Shown here: positions 9,084 through 41,545 of the stretch, piece by piece | Layout of the letters: each line of letters starts with the position of its first letter | Position numbering within the stretch: position 1 is the first letter of the stretch | NCBI GenBank assembly: GCA_013003535.1 | Contig: JABDIY010000004.1 | Span: 1-56,192, forward strand | DNA: 56,192 nucleotides | Direction: 5' to 3' | DNA from: Acidimicrobiales bacterium | Lineage (GTDB): Bacteria; Actinomycetota; Acidimicrobiia; Acidimicrobiales; SZUA-35 | Notes under the pieces: generated by a model | Seen by the model: only the letters and a program-made list of their open reading frames with translations | Databases searched by the model: none | What the model was told of the DNA's origin: nothing | Made by a program: the position numbers and the translations under genes

Positions 9084-10373
9084 ATGAACCCGCCCGCTCC
9101 TCTCGCTGCTCCGGCAGATCCGGTTTCGGAGTGCTTGCGGGACCATGCTGCGCTGTTAGATCGGTCCCAGTTTCAAGCATTGGGTGAGGACGAGATCATC
9201 GATTTCGTGCGTTCCAACGAGCGGGTAATCCGACGTTTGGAAGCTGTTGGGTCAGCGGTGGCCAGTCGGCTTACCGAGCTGGGTGGGCTGAGCGCCGAGG
9301 ACGTGTTTTCCACCGTAGGCAAACACTCTACCGGCGAGGCCCGCCGGGTGCAGCGCCGTGGCGGTCTAGCCAACCGGCTGCCCACCCTCACTCGTGGTTT
9401 CCTGGCCGGCACCATCCCCACTGCAAACTTGGACACCGTGGCGTCGGCTCGGCACAAGCTCCGTCACGATCCCGCGTGGGAGGCGGCGTTCGATGCCAAG
9501 GATGCGTCGATGACGCGCAAGGCCAGCCGGATGAATCCAAAACGGTTCGCCGGCTGGATACGAGATCTGGTGGACCGGATCTCCGATGACGGTCAGACCG
9601 AGCAGCAATCCGATGCCGATAAGAACAGTTTTCGGTCGTGGACCAACAGCGAGGGCCGCTGGCAAGCCAGATTGGACCTCGATCCAATGGCTGGGGAGAA
9701 GTTTCAGAACGCCATCGACGGTGAAGCTCGCTCACTGGCCAAGCAAGCCACGTTGGCTGGCGAAACGGCCCATCACGGCGAGAACCTCAACGCAACAGCG
9801 GCATGTTCGCTGGTCGATTCGGCCAGCGGCACCAAGGGTCGTCCGTCAATCAACGTGGTCGTCGACCTCGACACCCTCCGGCACGGCCCATGGGACGGCA
9901 CGATCAAAAGAACAGGCGGTGGCAACAACATCTCATTGCCATCTCTCCACCAATTCCTGTGCGATGCGTGGATTACCCACACCGTCCTCCACGAAGACGG
10001 CAGGGCACTCGCCGTCGGGCGCAAATATCGGACCGCCACCGACGCTCAACGTGACGCTCTTCGCATCATGTACCAAACCTGTGCCATGTGCGAGGTCCAG
10101 TTCGACCACTGTGAGATCCACCACATCATCGAATGGGAACACCACGGCCCCACCGACCTCAACAATCTCATCCCCCTGTGCAGTGTCCACCATCAACGGA
10201 TCCACCACGGCTGGCAACTCAAACTTGATGATCAACGAAACCTCCATTGCTCCCGTCCCGACGGACGGCACTGGAAAACCCTGCCCCTTCCGTCCGCCGC
10301 CTCATGCCGAGCGCGGCACGAATACCGCCAACGAAAAAGAGCCCATGAACGACAACCGTCCACAACCGACTAA
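9084..10373 (+). CDS. DUF222 / 13E12-repeat HNH endonuclease-like protein
   Basis: A 429-residue protein of the actinobacterial 13E12 family. The first 300 residues are the helical DUF222 region (with SERVI-like RRLEAVGSAVASRLTELGG near 50). The HNH domain begins around residue 332 with CAMC, followed by HCEIHHIIEWEHHGPTDLNN and LCSVHHQRIHHG, so the zinc cysteines and the His-His/Asn-His catalytic positions are intact. Such genes are multicopy in actinobacteria and behave like scattered selfish or recombination-associated elements; no in-cell role is established. It lies between the methyltransferase pair and priA, flanked by weakly coding DNA. Confidence 0.85.
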   Translation: MNPPAPLAAPADPVSECLRDHAALLDRSQFQALGEDEIIDFVRSNERVIRRLEAVGSAVASRLTELGGLSAEDVFSTVGKHSTGEARRVQRRGGLANRLPTLTRGFLAGTIPTANLDTVASARHKLRHDPAWEAAFDAKDASMTRKASRMNPKRFAGWIRDLVDRISDDGQTEQQSDADKNSFRSWTNSEGRWQARLDLDPMAGEKFQNAIDGEARSLAKQATLAGETAHHGENLNATAACSLVDSASGTKGRPSINVVVDLDTLRHGPWDGTIKRTGGGNNISLPSLHQFLCDAWITHTVLHEDGRALAVGRKYRTATDAQRDALRIMYQTCAMCEVQFDHCEIHHIIEWEHHGPTDLNNLIPLCSVHHQRIHHGWQLKLDDQRNLHCSRPDGRHWKTLPLPSAASCRARHEYRQRKRAHERQPSTTD

Positions 10374-10447
10374 CCCGGAACGGCCCATCCGGGCCACATC
10401 CGCCCGCCCTCCGTCAAGTGAACGAATGAGCTCTCCCGCACCCGGGT

Positions 10448-10655
10448 ATGAACCGATCCAGGACCACAACCCCGTGCGGGCGAGACCTCCGTTACGTGCT
10501 CACCGACTACATCTCCCGCGGCTATCGAACCATCGCCTACCTCGTGGAACAAACTCGCCGAAGAAGGCTACACAGTCTGGGATCGCGCTTCTAACGACAA
10601 CGTTGAAGAGTCGATCGACCGCCAACATCCCAACACAGCTCATGACCCGCACTAG
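10448..10655 (+). pseudogene. Frameshifted small ORF between the HNH gene and priA
   Basis: An ATG at 10448 opens a frame reading GRDLRYVLTDYISRGYRTIA and then LVE at about 10549. A +1 change into the third frame near 10550 continues as KLAEEGYTVWDRASNDNVEE and ends at TAG 10653-10655, giving about 68 residues in total. Both halves look protein-like and join smoothly (YLVE-x-KLAEEGY), which suggests one small gene with a single-base insertion. No family is recognised. Its stop overlaps the stop of the convergent priA gene. Could also be chance or a sequencing error. Confidence 0.4.
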
Positions 10656-12385
10656 GCACGAGGCGGATCCACCGCTACCGAGACCCGAGAATCCTTCGGC
10701 CGGGGTATGGCCGAGAGTGCTGCAGCCACCGTCGCTCGGTCCGGGCCCTTCACCAAAAACTTGTTGGCACTGTCGGGTCCAACTACCTCCAACCCCAAAC
10801 GTTCCCGCAACGGCTCCACAAAAGCGTCCGAGCCGGTACCGCCCACCTGTGCCAACCCGCCGAAGGGGGGAAGATTCGTGTGCGCTCGCAACTCCAACTC
10901 GCTCGAGGTGAAACCTTCCGGGTTGGCTTTCATGGCGGCTTGGAGAACACGATGATTCGGCGATCGAGTCTGCACCAGAACCCGACCTCCATCTGCCCGT
11001 GGCCCCACGATGGTGCAGGCCCGCAACAGCAGAGCCATCGCCTGCTCAGCGGCTCGGTAACGGGGTGCCAACAGTTCATTGTCGAAATCGAGAAAGGCCA
11101 CCGTGCGAGCCGATGCCACCCGATGCAGGAGCGCCTCGGTGCCTACAACCACACGATTGTCTAGGCCCTCACCGCCCGCCGATGTACCAGTGACTTCCCC
11201 CACTGGCTCCCGGAGTAGGACGCTCAGTTCTTCGGCGACTTTGGTGACACCCAACCGCAGCCGCTTCAGTTTGGTGCTCCCGCACTCGGCACAGACCAAC
11301 GGTCTGGATTCGCCAGACCGTCGCGCCACCAGTTTCCCATCTAGCTCCACCATGAGCTCTTGACGGTCCTGGGTTCGAATCAGTTCGCCGCAAACGGCGC
11401 AAGCCATCATGACCGAGCGGCCCTTCCGATTCAGAATGCAGAGCGCTCGGCCGCCCTCCCGCAACCGTCGGCTAAGCGCCCCGGTGAACAATCCGCCTCT
11501 ACCAGGATCGTCATCCCGGCGATCCACGACTTGCACGATCGGCCAGCCTTGGCGTTCTGCGGACCGGTCGGGTAGGCGCACGTCGGGAACTCGATGGATC
11601 ACAGCAGGGCTGGGGCTGGCACTGACCAGAAGGCACGGGATCCCAGCCCGGGATGCTCGCTCGATTGCGACGTCCCGAGCATTCCACGTGGGGTTCCGTT
11701 CATTGATCAACCCATCATCGTGCTCGTCGATAACCACGATCGACGCGAGATCGGGAACACTGGCAAACGCCGCCGAGCGGGCCCCGAGAACTACTCCGCC
11801 GGTGAACCCACCCGCCCACTCCTGAGGAAATCGATGGGTCCGTACCCCGGCTCTGGCCAGGCGACCGGCGTACCGAGCTGCGGTCATGTGATCTGGGGCG
11901 ATCACTATCGCCGGACCGAGCGCAGCGGCGGCCCGTACGATCTCGAATCTGTCGCTCGCCGGAGCGCTGCGAACGACGCGGGGACCGCTTCCGTCGAATA
12001 GTGAAACCGCTCCCATCGCTGGACCAGCCGCTACCGGAGCAGGACTTGGCCCCGGCAGGCGGTGGATATACGGCTCGGGACTGGCGGTGCCAAGAACCGC
12101 CGACCATCGTCCGGCCCACTCTTTGGCCACCCATTCAGCGAGATCCACAACCTCGGGGAGCGGCCCGAAGGAAGACGCCTTGAGCAGGGGTTCCAGCTTT
12201 ACCCCTTCCGGTGGCTCAGTGTCGACTCCTACCACCCAGCCAGCAGTGCGCCGCCCGTTGATCGAAACTCTCACGATCGTGCCTACCCGGATGGGAGGGC
12301 CACTCAGGTCGTTCGGGACCGAATAATCGAATGCCTTGTTGAGCCCGGAGACGTCGGGAAGGACTCGGACCACCTGTTCCTTCAT
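10652..12385 (-). CDS. priA: PriA-like primosomal protein, helicase-inactive actinobacterial type
   Basis: About 577 residues when started at the ATG at 12385 (MKEQVVRVLPDVSG); a GTG at 12430 would add 15 arginine-rich residues. The N-terminal DNA-binding domain has NKAFDYSVP and GTIVRVSINGRRTAGWVVG. The Walker A motif of true PriA is absent, while the Walker B-like VIDEHDDGLINE and WNARDVAIERASRAG remain. Only four zinc cysteines are visible (CAVCGE, CAECGS) against eight in E. coli PriA. Loss of helicase motifs is established for actinobacterial PriA, so it is probably a DNA-structure-binding restart protein rather than a helicase. It follows metK closely, as in related genomes. Confidence 0.88.
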   Translation of the reverse strand: MKEQVVRVLPDVSGLNKAFDYSVPNDLSGPPIRVGTIVRVSINGRRTAGWVVGVDTEPPEGVKLEPLLKASSFGPLPEVVDLAEWVAKEWAGRWSAVLGTASPEPYIHRLPGPSPAPVAAGPAMGAVSLFDGSGPRVVRSAPASDRFEIVRAAAALGPAIVIAPDHMTAARYAGRLARAGVRTHRFPQEWAGGFTGGVVLGARSAAFASVPDLASIVVIDEHDDGLINERNPTWNARDVAIERASRAGIPCLLVSASPSPAVIHRVPDVRLPDRSAERQGWPIVQVVDRRDDDPGRGGLFTGALSRRLREGGRALCILNRKGRSVMMACAVCGELIRTQDRQELMVELDGKLVARRSGESRPLVCAECGSTKLKRLRLGVTKVAEELSVLLREPVGEVTGTSAGGEGLDNRVVVGTEALLHRVASARTVAFLDFDNELLAPRYRAAEQAMALLLRACTIVGPRADGGRVLVQTRSPNHRVLQAAMKANPEGFTSSELELRAHTNLPPFGGLAQVGGTGSDAFVEPLRERLGLEVVGPDSANKFLVKGPDRATVAAALSAIPRPKDSRVSVAVDPPRA

Positions 12386-12433
12386 CGTGGACACGGCCTC
12401 AGCCCTACGCCGTTGGCGCAGAGCGGCCACATC

Positions 12434-13654
12434 TCAGAGTCCGAGGGTGGACTTCAGACCGTCTACTCGATCGGTGCGCTCCCAAGTGAAGAAGCCGTCG
12501 TCGGTGGCGGGTCGACCGAAGTGACCATACGCTGCCGTCGGAACATAGATTGGACGACGCAACTCGAGATCGTGGAGAATTGCTGCCGGACGGAGGTCGA
12601 AAACCTCAGCGACAGCAGCGTTGATCTTGGCCGGATCGACAGCCTCGGTGCCGAACGTTTCGACCATGATCGAAATGGGATGGGCCACACCGATGGCATA
12701 CGCAACCTGCACTTCACAACGGTCGGCTGCTCCCGCCGCTACGAGGTTCTTCGCCACCCAACGGGTGGCATAGGCGCCTGAGCGGTCCACCTTGGACGGG
12801 TCTTTGCCACTGAAGGCGCCCCCGCCGTGGCGAGCGGAACCGCCATAGGTGTCAACAATGATCTTGCGCCCAGTGAGACCGGCATCTCCCACCGGACCAC
12901 CGATCACGAAGTGTCCCGTGGGATTCACCAGGACTTCGTACTCATCTCCGGCGAACTGCTCGGGGACCATCGGTCGGATCACGTGCTCGATCAGATCGGG
13001 ACGGATCATCGAGTCTCTATCGATTCCTTCGTCATGTTGGGTGGAGATCAAAACGGTTCGCAAACGGACCGGTTTCCCGCCTTCGTAGTCAAAGCTGACC
13101 TGGGTTTTCCCGTCCGGGCGAAGGTAGGGAACGGTGCCTGCTCGTCGCACCTCGGCGAGCCGTTCGGCCATCCGATGGGCAAGGTGGATCGGCAGAGGCA
13201 TCAACTCAGACGTCTCGGTGCAGGCATACCCGAACATCATTCCCTGGTCGCCGGCGCCTTGTTCGTCGTAAGGATCTCCTGAGGACGACCCGGACCGGAT
13301 TTCCTCGGACTTATCGACGCCCATGGCGATATCGGCGGACTGTTCATCGAGGCTGACCATCACACCGCAAGTTGCCCCGTCGAAGCCATAACTTTCAGAG
13401 TCGTACCCAATCCGAGTAATCCGGTCCCGAACAACCCGCGGGATGTCTACATAGGCTTTGGTGGAGATCTCCCCGGCCACGATGGCCATCCCGGTGGTCA
13501 CCAGAGTCTCGCACGCTACCCGGGCGTCCGGATCCTCGGCCAGGATGGCATCGAGAATCGAGTCCGAGATCTGATCGGCCATCTTGTCTGGGTGGCCCTC
13601 GGTCACCGACTCAGAGGTAAAGGTGAAGGTTCCGTTCACTGCTTTTGGTTTCAT
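12434..13654 (-). CDS. metK: S-adenosylmethionine synthetase
   Basis: A 406-residue enzyme making SAM from methionine and ATP, full length for the family. [16 protein letters not shown] (16-31) is the first ATP/Mg motif, [16 protein letters not shown] (133-148) the signature, and [19 protein letters not shown] (277-295) the P-loop-like phosphate motif; all catalytic residues are present. The ATG start overlaps the coaBC stop by four bases (ATGA), so there is no room for a SAM riboswitch directly before it. Confidence 0.97.
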
Positions 13655-14898
13655 TTCTGTTTGGGATGTTTAGTTTTCAGCCTGTCGGCAATTACTTCGC
13701 AGATTCCACTGGCGATCTGCTCTTTGGATCGTAGGGACAGCGACACCTCAAATCCGTCATTTCCGTAGATCGTGACGGCATTGGTGGAGTGAGCAAAACC
13801 CACCTGGTCGGCTGCGACATCATTGGCAACGATGAGATCGAGATTCTTTCGATGCAGCTTTGACTGGGCGTTCTGGGAGACATTCTGCGTTTCGGCAGCA
13901 AAACCCACAAGCAGCGATGTGAGCTGCCCGGCCGCTTTCAGGGTCCCCAATTCCTCGAGAATGTCTACGGTTGGGTGCAGCGTCAGCGAAGGGATTCCAG
14001 CGACTTTCTTGATCTTCTGATCGGAGGCGGATTGCGGGGCGAAATCGGCGACGGCTGCGGCCATGACGATGACGTGGGCAGCGGCGCTTCCGCTCATGAC
14101 GGCTTGATGCATTTGTGCAGCTGTTTCTACATCGATCCTCCGGATTCCCGACGATGACGGAATGGCCGCGGTAGTGACGAGCGTGACTTCGGCCCCGGCG
14201 AGTTTGGCGGCCTCGGCGATTGCATGACCTTGCTTGCCAGAAGACCTGTTGCCGATGAAACGAACCGGATCGATCGGCTCTCGGGTACCACCGGCGCTGA
14301 CCAGTACTCTCTTGCCGGCCAGCTGGTGGGCGTTGGGTCCGATCGTGGTGAGTACTGCCTCCACAACAGTTTCGGGGGCGGCGAGCCGTCCCTTACCTAT
14401 GTCGCCGCCGGCGAGACGCCCATCCTCGGGCGGGACGACTATCACTCCCCGCTCCGCCAATACGTCGAGGTTTTCCATCACCGCCGGGTGTTCCCACATC
14501 TCGGTATGCATGGCCGGACACACGATGACTGGGGCTTCGGTGGCGATCAACGTGGCCGATAGCAGGTCGGCCGAGCGCCCGGTTCTGAGATCGGAAATGA
14601 TTCTGGCAGTTGCCGGGCACACAACGACTACGTCGGCGGTTTGGCCAAGTTGCGTGTGTGGAATGGTGACCTCGTCAGTCCAGAGCGACGTTTTGGGAGG
14701 TTCCGAAGCCAACGCGCGAAAGGTGGTCTCGCCCACCATGTTCAAGGCGGCGTCAGTGAGAACCGGCACCACGTAGGCACCGAGGTCAATCAACCTGCGA
14801 CAGACCTCGATGGCCTTATACGCCGCAATACCACCGGTCACACCGAGGACAACTCGTTTACCGGCCAGCGGTAAAGGAGCGTTACTCGGCTGCGTCAC
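13651..14898 (-). CDS. coaBC: Bifunctional phosphopantothenoylcysteine decarboxylase / phosphopantothenate-cysteine ligase
   Basis: A 415-residue two-domain protein of coenzyme A synthesis. The N-terminal CoaC flavoprotein domain (about 1-185) has [18 protein letters not shown] and the active-site [13 protein letters not shown]. The C-terminal CoaB ligase domain (about 190-415) has [33 protein letters not shown] and [15 protein letters not shown]. The start is a GTG at 14898 that overlaps the 3' end of rpoZ by 17 bases. The same rpoZ-coaBC-metK-priA order is widespread in actinobacteria. Confidence 0.95.
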
Positions 14899-38998: not shown

Positions 38999-41545
38999 AT
39001 GACAAGCGAGAGCCTCACTGACCTCGGCGATGCGCTCCGCCGACTCGCGTCGGAGCCCGTTTTGCTCGTAGCGTCAGATTACGATGGCACAATCGCTCCG
39101 CTTGTGGACGATCCATCCGACGCCGTTGCAGATCGCGAATCATCAGCAGCGCTGAAAAGGTTGGGACGGGCCGATCACACCTACGCCGCGCTGATCTCGG
39201 GACGTAGTCTGGCCGACCTCGAACTTGCGTCGGGTCTTGGAGACATCGTTCGCCTCATCGGCAGCCACGGCAGCGAATTCGACGTTGGTTTCACCAAGGA
39301 TCTGGATCCCGAGCGGGCAGAACTTCGGAACGCTTTGGTAGACGAAACTTTCCGGATCTGTGCCCGGACCGCCGGCCGGGTGGAAGAGAAACCGGCCGGG
39401 GTCGCGTTCCATCTCCGCAACGTTGACGAGGCCGGCCGAGCCGCAGCTCTCAGCGCTCTTGCGGAAGGCCCGCAGACCTGGGAAGGGGTCCACACCCGGA
39501 GCGGCCACGACGTGTTGGAGCTCACCATCACCTCGACGAACAAGGGCCATGCCCTCGAACGACTTCGGGCCGAAGTTGGTGCTACCGCGGTTCTTTTCAT
39601 CGGCGATGACGACACAGATGAAGATGCTCTCGTCACTCTCACCGGACCGGACGTGGGGATCCGTGTTGGCCCGGGTGAATCGGCTGCTCATTTTCGCGTC
39701 GAGTCACCGGACGAGGTTTCTCGCATCCTCGCTTTGCTCTCTGAACTGAGAAGCGACTGGCTCACCGGTGCGGGCCTTCAACCGCTCCAGCATCATTCGA
39801 TTCTGTCGGATCAGCGGACCGCGGCGATCGTCAATCCGCAAGGTCGAATCGTGTGGTTATGCGTGCCCCGAATCGACTCCGGAGCGGTATTCGCCGAACT
39901 TCTGGGTGGTCAGGCCGCAGGAGCATTCAGCATCGGGCCCCTCGACGGCTCCGCTCCGGTGGCCCAGCAATATCGACCGGGTTCCATGATCCTGGAGACC
40001 CGCTTCCCCGAGTTCACCGTGACCGATTACATGGACGTTTCGGGCAGTCGAGCCCAGGAACTTGCCGGCCGTACCGACCTTCTTCGAGTCATCGAGGGAA
40101 CCGGGCAGGCCATGATCGAGTACTCGCCCCGCCTCGATTTCGGCCGCGTTCCCACCTCTCTGGTGACAACCCCGAATGGCGTGCGAATTCAAAGCGCCAT
40201 CGAACCGCTGGTATTGCATTGCAGCGGGGAAGGGTGGTCAGGCCATGAGTGGAAGCTGGTGTCCTATGGCCCCAACCAGTCAGCCCGAGCCGTTGTAGAC
40301 CTCTTGCGGGGTCCGGTGGTCCTCGAACTCCGGGCCGGCACGGATTCGCTCGACGATCATCCGCGCCCAGAGTACGACCGCCAAAGTGACACGCACCGAT
40401 TCTGGACCGACCGCAGCGACCCTTTGGAACTGCCCGAATCCGCCCGAGAAGTGATCCGCCGGGCCGCAATCACACTTCAGGCCTTGCAACACGGGCCAAC
40501 CGGTGCGCTGGTGTCCTCGGTATCGACAAGCCTCCCTGAATACCTCGGCGGCGTTCGCAACTGGGACATGCGGTACTGCCGGATCCGCGATGCTGCCCTC
40601 AGTTGCCGAGCCCTCGCCGAGCTGGGGTCCGTGCAGGAAGGCCGGCGACTCCTCGATTGGCTACAAAAGGTGATTCTCGTTCGACCCGAGACCGACCGTC
40701 TGGCGCCGGTCTACCTCGTCACCGGCCGGCACCTTCCGCCCGAAGCGGAGATTACCGGCTTGGCCGGCTACGGGGGCGCCCGGCCGGTCCGTGTCGGCAA
40801 CGGTGCTGATCTACAGGTCCAACTGGACCTTTATGGGCAGGTTCTGGAATTGGTCGAAACGCTGCGCCAACGCGGTGAAGTCCTGACCCTCAAGGACTGG
40901 CGTTTGGTCGAAAAACTTGTGATCTCAGTTGCCCACCGTTGGCGAGAACCCGATCATGGAGTCTGGGAGATTCGCCGGGTCCCCCGCCACTATGTCCATT
41001 CCAAAGTCCACTGCTGGATGGCGGTCGATCGCGGGATTCGCATCGCCCGGCAGTTTTGTGACCGCGCCCCCGACACATGGCTGGCGCTCCGAACCGAGAT
41101 CGCCGAAGATGTACTGGCCAACGGGTGGTCCGAGAAGCGACAGTCGTTTACCGCTGCCTACGACGGTTCGGACTTGGACGTTGGAGCGCTGTCGGTTGGG
41201 CTGAGCGGCCTCATTCCCGCGGATGATCCCCGCTTTGCGGCAACGGTTGACGCGGTACGTCGGGAACTGCTCACCGGTGGAACGGTCTATACCTCCCACA
41301 GCGACGATGGACTCCCCGGCCGCCGCCATGGAGTTCACCTCGCGACGTCCTGGCTGATCGATGCGCTGCTGCTCACAGGTCGTCGAGATGAAGCCAAGGA
41401 GCTCTTCGCGATTCTTCGATCGCGGGTTGGGGCAACCGGCATCCTGACCGCACAGGTAGACCCGATGGAAGAACGGGCACTGGGGAACATACCGATGGCC
41501 TATTCCCACGCCGGCTTCATCTTCAACGCTCTGCACCTGCAATAG
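38999..41545 (+). CDS. Fusion of trehalose-6-phosphate phosphatase and a GH15-family domain
   Basis: An 848-residue protein. Residues 1-250 are a HAD-type trehalose phosphatase: VASDYDGTIAP (25-35, nucleophile Asp27), SGRSLADLELA and FIGDDDTDEDAL (about 199-210). From about 255 to the end is a GH15 (glucoamylase/trehalase) unit: beta-domain start SILSDQRTAAIVNPQGRIVW, catalytic barrel with VRNWDMRYCRIRDAAL, YGGARPVRVGNGADLQVQLD, and PDHGVWEIR holding the general-acid Glu. Near the C-terminus the usual Ala/Ser-Glu-Glu before Trp/Val-Asp-Pro reads Thr817-Ala818-Gln819, so the second catalytic Glu appears missing although LGNIPMAYSHAGFI after it is intact. No otsA is adjacent. Confidence 0.85.
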   Translation: MTSESLTDLGDALRRLASEPVLLVASDYDGTIAPLVDDPSDAVADRESSAALKRLGRADHTYAALISGRSLADLELASGLGDIVRLIGSHGSEFDVGFTKDLDPERAELRNALVDETFRICARTAGRVEEKPAGVAFHLRNVDEAGRAAALSALAEGPQTWEGVHTRSGHDVLELTITSTNKGHALERLRAEVGATAVLFIGDDDTDEDALVTLTGPDVGIRVGPGESAAHFRVESPDEVSRILALLSELRSDWLTGAGLQPLQHHSILSDQRTAAIVNPQGRIVWLCVPRIDSGAVFAELLGGQAAGAFSIGPLDGSAPVAQQYRPGSMILETRFPEFTVTDYMDVSGSRAQELAGRTDLLRVIEGTGQAMIEYSPRLDFGRVPTSLVTTPNGVRIQSAIEPLVLHCSGEGWSGHEWKLVSYGPNQSARAVVDLLRGPVVLELRAGTDSLDDHPRPEYDRQSDTHRFWTDRSDPLELPESAREVIRRAAITLQALQHGPTGALVSSVSTSLPEYLGGVRNWDMRYCRIRDAALSCRALAELGSVQEGRRLLDWLQKVILVRPETDRLAPVYLVTGRHLPPEAEITGLAGYGGARPVRVGNGADLQVQLDLYGQVLELVETLRQRGEVLTLKDWRLVEKLVISVAHRWREPDHGVWEIRRVPRHYVHSKVHCWMAVDRGIRIARQFCDRAPDTWLALRTEIAEDVLANGWSEKRQSFTAAYDGSDLDVGALSVGLSGLIPADDPRFAATVDAVRRELLTGGTVYTSHSDDGLPGRRHGVHLATSWLIDALLLTGRRDEAKELFAILRSRVGATGILTAQVDPMEERALGNIPMAYSHAGFIFNALHLQ

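Follow-up and report, generated by a model that had tools for sequence, protein, structure and literature searches.

A widespread trehalose phosphatase fusion with a probably silenced GH15 half in one genus of Acidimicrobiales

Introduction

What can a glycoside hydrolase domain do for a trehalose phosphatase once its own general base has gone? This question is raised by a gene of an Acidimicrobiales bacterium (assembly GCA_013003535.1), in which an OtsB phosphatase, a TREH_N domain and a GH15 domain are encoded by a single open frame. The gene lies in the window, that is, the whole 56,192-nt stretch of contig JABDIY010000004.1 that was analysed. A first-pass annotation had proposed that the GH15 part is non-hydrolytic, perhaps binding or sensing a sugar, or that it acts like a phosphorylase or transferase.

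Results

Organization of the fusion gene

The gene, its domains and the residues considered below are listed in Table 1. The OtsB half was matched by PF02358 (85 bits; cut-off 27) and TIGR00685 (91.1 bits; cut-off 68.05), and the GH15 half by PF00723 (146 bits; cut-off 22). All HAD residues of OtsB (the DxD, Ser, Lys and GDD positions, namely D27, D29, T31, S67, K182, D203, D204 and D207) are present, and the originally described fusion of an OtsB domain with full HAD motifs to a GH15 unit was thus confirmed by both Pfam domains and catalytic residues. The Pfam match of GH15 covers residues 482-776 and ends at profile position 315 of 427; in four scanned fused relatives, it reaches position 424-426. 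The base motif reads GIL-T817-A818-Q819-V-D-P ... LGNIPMAYSH, exactly as first reported. Full-length relatives with 67-70% identity were found in three other genomes of the genus.

Table 1 Coordinates of the fusion gene, its domains and key residues in the window
Feature	Position	Strand	Basis or remark
OtsB-TREH_N-GH15 fusion gene, 848 aa	38999..41545	+	open frame; Pfam; relatives
OtsB (Trehalose_PPase), residues 27-210	39077..39628	+	Pfam; catalytic residues intact
TREH_N, residues 249-469	39743..40405	+	Pfam
GH15 (alpha/alpha)6-barrel, about residues 482-846	40442..41536	+	start from Pfam; end from alignment and model
Met524, replacing the Tyr that hydrogen-bonds the general base	40568..40570	+	equals Tyr48 of KfIG
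Arg528, replacing the subsite -1 Trp	40580..40582	+	column comparison
Glu657, general acid, kept	40967..40969	+	equals E178 of KfIG
Thr765, replacing a probable subsite +1 Arg	41291..41293	+	probable role, via index to DDase Arg791
Arg776-His777, new basic pair replacing Glu-Gly	41324..41329	+	fixed in 4/4 genus proteins
Ala818, replacing the general base Glu	41450..41452	+	equals E335 of KfIG

Catalytic residues mapped onto known GH15 enzymes

Family profile alignments were used to map the window protein onto KfIG, the isomaltose glucohydrolase of K. flavida, for which the chain index minus 20 gives the KfIG numbering. E657, residue 818 and residue 524 correspond to E178, E335 and Tyr48, respectively, so the general acid in GVWEIR remains, as had been claimed. 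The KfIG mutant chains agree with this assignment: the E178A chain has Ala at the acid column, and the alignments of the Y48F and E335A chains begin or stop at the altered residue. A chance difference or an alignment slip at residues 817-819 was ruled out, as the motif aligns across all four members of the genus and the adjacent columns are maintained in the KfIG alignment.

According to the excerpts of PMC12446779 used here, the Tyr equivalent to Tyr48 of KfIG hydrogen-bonds the general base of GH15, and the residue after the base Glu is Gln in KfIG, TtGA and AgGD. It is also Gln in many intact relatives. In the 'Glu-Glu' pair reported as lost, the base is therefore the first Glu alone; the loss of the general base stands, whereas the second Glu is not part of it.

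The same excerpts place Trp540 of dextran dextrinase (DDase) along subsite -1, let Arg542-Asp543 bind O4/O6 and assign Arg791 to subsite +1 (PMC12446779). By W-x-R-D spacing, Trp540 was equated with W528 of the window alignment; R530-D531 are the counterparts of Arg542-Asp543 and are kept in the genus, and R765 matches Arg791 by alignment index, which would give it a role in subsite +1. Moreover, the DDase Glu that matches the GH15 base is a nucleophile; when it was mutated to Q, A, C or S, activity could no longer be detected with either maltotetraose or isomaltotriose (PMC12446779, excerpts).

Loss of the general base in one genus

The fusion is common in the family: 36 of its 39 genomes match the window protein at 1e-60 or better, 32 along the whole protein and four as fragments where contigs stop. 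The same fusion occurs in many Actinomycetota, Planctomycetota and others, and of 296 genomes drawn evenly across the phylum, eight matched at 1e-150, the window's included. The named fusions were found by patterns with an OtsB motif and without the GH15 acid or base; because the OtsB motif was included, this set is biased towards intact OtsB.

Positions 817-819 were compared across fused homologues, as had been proposed with the original annotation. Of the 35 readable family proteins, 31 retain the general base, as do all 47 fusions outside the family and all 58 other GH15 proteins, the last being those whose best BLAST segment spans TREH_N-GH15 alone (two of them, L100 and L127, also match the OtsB part). 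These counts rule out a base loss common to all fusions. Glu occupies alignment column 818 in 137/137 readable sequences outside the genus. It is absent from all four genus proteins, being replaced by Ala in the window protein (L002), Gly in L003, and Ala in L004 and L005, with residues 818-819 reading AQ, GQ, AH and AQ, respectively; G004, the fifth genome of the genus and 81% complete, gave no match to the fusion. Since Glu is universal outside the genus and its loss in 4/4 is accompanied by differing following letters, the pattern is more than chance. Among the sequences sampled, base loss is restricted to the window's genus.

Both catalytic sites could be read in 35 family proteins, of which six lack the acid, four lack the base and 25 have both. 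The six acid-loss members (L016, L026, L027, L031, L144 and L149) carry Gln or Gly for the acid and keep the base. None of the 47 outside fusions and 58 other GH15 proteins lacks either residue. The fusions of other bacteria (Nocardia, Rhodococcus, Micromonospora, Amycolatopsis, Phycisphaerales and others) have the identical three-domain order, with 40-58% identity when full length, but differ from the window protein in keeping both carboxylates. The joining of a trehalose-making phosphatase to a trehalase had been called futile; because fusions with both GH15 carboxylates are the rule, this argument is not supported.

The trehalase label itself would be putative for any of these GH15 halves. 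The best NCBIfam profiles on the window GH15 were those of the archaeal GH15 trehalases TreH1 and TreH2 (NF041084 and NF041085; 311 and 253 bits), far under their curated cut-offs of 820 and 1000 bits.

Further changes around the active site

The base is not the only conserved residue altered in the genus. Specifically, Tyr at column 524, found in 135 of 138 readable others, is M, M, M and L; Trp at column 528 (138/138) is Arg in all four proteins; and Arg at column 765 (136/137) is T, S, N and N. Other conserved columns changed in 4/4 include M671 (H/Y/Y/Y), F779 (V) and Q833 (M/M/S/S), and E776 and G777 have become R and H in all four.

A set of 61 GH15 positions at least 97% conserved among 130 reference proteins was used for comparison. 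Seven of them (Y524, W528, M671, R765, F779, E818 and Q833) are changed in all four genus proteins, which depart at 11, 8, 8 and 7 positions. The reference proteins depart at 0.44 positions on average, a value that is low in part by construction because the reference itself defines the conserved positions; 96 of the 130 show no departure, and the maximum is seven (L127). Among the acid-loss members, departures number nine in L027, four in L016, three each in L026 and L031, and two each in L144 and L149, the last with 41 of the positions readable. Meanwhile, of 42 conserved OtsB positions, 2-3 are altered in the genus, all of them non-catalytic, and none is altered in the five acid-loss members that have an OtsB half.

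Replacement of the base by another Glu or Asp, a possibility raised in the first-pass annotation, was also examined. No GH15-domain position combined an acidic residue in all four genus proteins with a frequency of acidic residues of at most 10% elsewhere, and a take-over by another Glu or Asp was rejected on the lack of a fixed acidic gain; His777 or an already conserved acid remain candidates. Because the Tyr partner, the subsite -1 Trp and the +1 Arg are lost as well and no Asp/Glu was gained in 4/4, the proposal that the GH15 part is non-hydrolytic appears the likeliest.

Structure model

Residues 249-848 were modelled from an alignment of 47 rows with a pLDDT of 94.1 and a pTM of 0.94. 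The structural check suggested earlier gave a GH15 fold whose best VIA-align matches were GH15 enzymes: DDase (Z 39.8; rmsd 3.9; 525 aligned), KfIG (39.6; 2.3; 329), TtGA (38.5; 3.1; 523) and AgGD (37.0; 3.2; 523). Lower matches were the phosphorylase kinase (PhK) alpha subunit (8jfl; Z 29.4; 2.8; 311), cellobiose phosphorylase (29.0) and a GH65 enzyme (27.8). KfIG, the glucoamylase TtGA, the glucodextranase AgGD and DDase have the fold, the general acid and the Arg-Asp sugar contacts in common with the window GH15, which carries other residues at the base, at the Tyr that partners it and at the Trp of subsite -1. The altered side chains would take the places indicated by homology.

Evolution and gene neighbourhood

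On a GH15 tree of 57 rows, whose bootstrap is not fully settled, base loss is one change (100/100; stem 0.63) and acid loss is five changes, three of which are demanded by well-supported branches alone. L027, which has lost the acid, is the sister of the genus at 87/89, and both branches are long. With the base lost once and the acid five times, GH15 catalysis seems to have been repeatedly dispensable in the family.

Inside the genus, identity is 71.9% for GH15, 67.4% for OtsB and 65.1% for TREH_N, compared with 77.3, 65.2 and 64.1%, respectively, between intact genera. GH15 is therefore the best-kept domain in the genus, though less so than in intact genera: the GH15/OtsB differences are 28.1/32.6 percent in the genus and 22.7/34.8 percent between intact genera. 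The GH15 dN/dS (NG86) was 0.09-0.16 in four of the six genus pairs, with dS of 1.5-1.8, near saturation, and 0.016 and 0.057 in the two intact pairs for which usable values were obtained. Purifying selection on the GH15 half of the genus can safely be concluded. Some relaxation of constraint is likely, because dN/dS exceeds that of the two intact pairs and GH15 diverges faster relative to OtsB.

On the side of the fusion that carries what we take, from reading the sequences, to be alaS, the genes are common to all three other genus members. On the opposite side, a gene likewise read as ABC-F was found in the two members whose contig extends that far, and also near the fusion in three intact genera. 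The fusion and the ABC-F gene adjoin in the window and in L157; in L156 (G002:C18, about 10361-14393), about 4 kb lie between them.

Trehalose-related genes

The window's genome (G000) is a draft of 221 contigs and 95.8% complete. Its profile search gave one PF02358 match and one PF00723 match, both in the fusion gene; a single OtsA-type match (PF00982) lies on a different contig (C129:12094-13461). A decaying second copy is not supported, given these single PF02358 and PF00723 matches in the draft and a neighbourhood like that of intact genera. Two acid-loss genomes, G031 and G032, carry an additional OtsB match, so reasoning from a sole OtsB leaves them out.

Of the 10 family genomes whose GH15 half is disabled, 9 had GH65 matches, compared with 8 of the 26 others (Fisher p 0.002). 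The test ignores relatedness and was chosen after the table was seen, and one of the 26 (G027) has its base truncated where the contig stops. In G000, the two GH65 proteins best match maltose phosphorylase and kojibiose phosphorylase, and GH65 compensation via a trehalose route is thus not supported.

Several other loci were recorded. A weak partial match to GH37 trehalase (25.2 bits; cut-off 21) lies at G000:C44:3579-4049 (in L179). In two genus members, a beta-phosphoglucomutase-like gene adjoins a GH65 gene (L173:3098-6249 in G002 and L174:1700-4860 in G001), which suggests an alpha-glucoside phosphorylase route. At L176:91-4085 (G031:C83), a 533-aa protein combining beta-phosphoglucomutase-like and OtsB parts is directly followed by a GH65 gene, an arrangement that we take to resemble a split M. 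tuberculosis OtsB1. The extra glycosidase-like domain of OtsB1 is reportedly GH65, unlike the GH15 of the window fusion. M. tuberculosis OtsB1 (Rv2006) is a large OtsB homologue of unknown function, and phosphatase activity resides in OtsB2 only, according to excerpts of PMC11046441.

Broken OtsB in Arthrobacter-type fusions

A mirror case was found in the Arthrobacter-type fusions (L056, which is the same gene as L161, together with L088, L099 and L162-L168), whose OtsB nucleophile motif is changed from DYDGT to NYGGT (DxD to NxG) and whose GDD has become GDA. The broken motif was seen in two named Arthrobacter (L088 and L099) and in all eight genomes of family f42 that matched among 120 searched. 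Every protein read (the set without L163) has Glu at both carboxylate positions of GH15, acid as well as base, and all eight searched genomes have a second OtsB match. In Brevibacterium (L086 and L091) and L092, the OtsB catalytic residues are kept. As OtsB is broken in the Arthrobacter type and GH15 in the window's genus, where the fused OtsB is the surviving half and the only OtsB detected, either half can be broken.

Discussion

The gene probably encodes a working OtsB phosphatase joined to a silenced GH15 pseudoenzyme that is structurally retained and kept by purifying selection. The fusion would be the genome's trehalose-6-phosphate (T6P) phosphatase, presumably making trehalose with the OtsA encoded on the other contig. 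In the ancestor of the genus, the GH15 half would have lost its base together with nearby residues of subsites -1 and +1, and no useful rate of glycoside hydrolysis is therefore expected. The simplest explanation for retention of its fold would be that it serves the attached phosphatase in a structural or regulatory way. Phosphatase activity, lack of hydrolysis and a retained role of the GH15 half are all inferred. Some features fit this explanation less well: E657, the general acid, persists alongside the Arg530-Asp531 pair that binds the sugar, which leaves some chemistry possible; R528, R776, H777 and V779 are fixed rather than random and may point to a new function; and constraint on GH15 is somewhat relaxed in the genus.

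A special case of the same explanation is that the pocket has been remodelled into a regulatory site for an anion, such as T6P or glucose 6-phosphate, which regulates or feeds OtsB. W528R and Y524M would open a basic pocket near C6 in subsite -1, with halves silenced in turn across the fusion family, GH15 here and OtsB in the Arthrobacter type. W528, which by homology lies beside C5/C6 in subsite -1 (PMC12446779, excerpts), is Arg in 4/4, R776 and H777 are fixed, and R530-D531 are kept. Additionally, the GH15 domain of the genus gained five basic and zero acidic residues, and five control sets of four proteins gained neither, although these sets were drawn without matching branch length and the stem of the genus is long (0.63). 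An anion-binding pocket formed by the new basic residues is possible. As the pocket geometry comes from homology, a T6P or sugar-phosphate regulatory site is considered unlikely.

It is likewise improbable that the half is an altered but working enzyme that acts on a different substrate, either with a new base (His777, for example) or by letting phosphate or some other acceptor serve as the nucleophile. The acid is kept in 4/4 genus proteins and H777 is fixed; retention of E657 with loss of E818 is a phosphorylase-like trait, and clan relatives with the phosphorylase folds of GH65 and GH94 are among the structural matches. A putative phosphate pocket in the place of the base might involve the new basic residues R528, R776 and H777. 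However, the sugar contacts in subsites -1 and +1 are changed alongside the base, and the model is structurally closest to GH15 enzymes rather than to phosphorylases; the phosphorylase- or transferase-like action originally suggested gained no positive support. Moreover, the acid-less relatives retain the fold too, so catalysis is not what preserves it there.

Simple decay, in which the GH15 half drifts without function and is on its way to being lost, would agree with the departures at conserved positions and the relaxation in dN/dS and relative rate. We consider it quite unlikely, as an uninterrupted frame spanning the whole protein is found in four genomes at 67-70% identity, GH15 is the most conserved domain in the genus, and dN/dS is well below 1, with dS near saturation. 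A sequencing or assembly artefact has a negligible chance, for although the genus members are draft genomes of 140-370 contigs, four of them agree on the base loss with different residues.

The silenced pseudoenzyme that we favour has a partial parallel. GH15-like domains without a hydrolase role are already known, for example in phosphorylase kinase, whose alpha subunit has a GH15-like fold; it belongs to a eukaryotic kinase complex and, unlike the window protein, has no sugar phosphatase fused. A literature search on this fold in phosphorylase kinase alpha returned nothing, and among the titles listed from open-licence literature, none described the OtsB-TREH_N-GH15 fusion or its silencing. 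The fusion itself is ordinary and widespread.

In these fusions of apparently opposing enzymes, either half has been independently silenced in different lineages. In the Acidimicrobiales family, the GH15 base was lost once and the acid about five times, and the OtsB catalytic residues stay. Together with the Arthrobacter-type fusions, this makes a natural test set for a non-catalytic role of the GH15 domain on the phosphatase, and it warns against naming such proteins bifunctional from domain matches.
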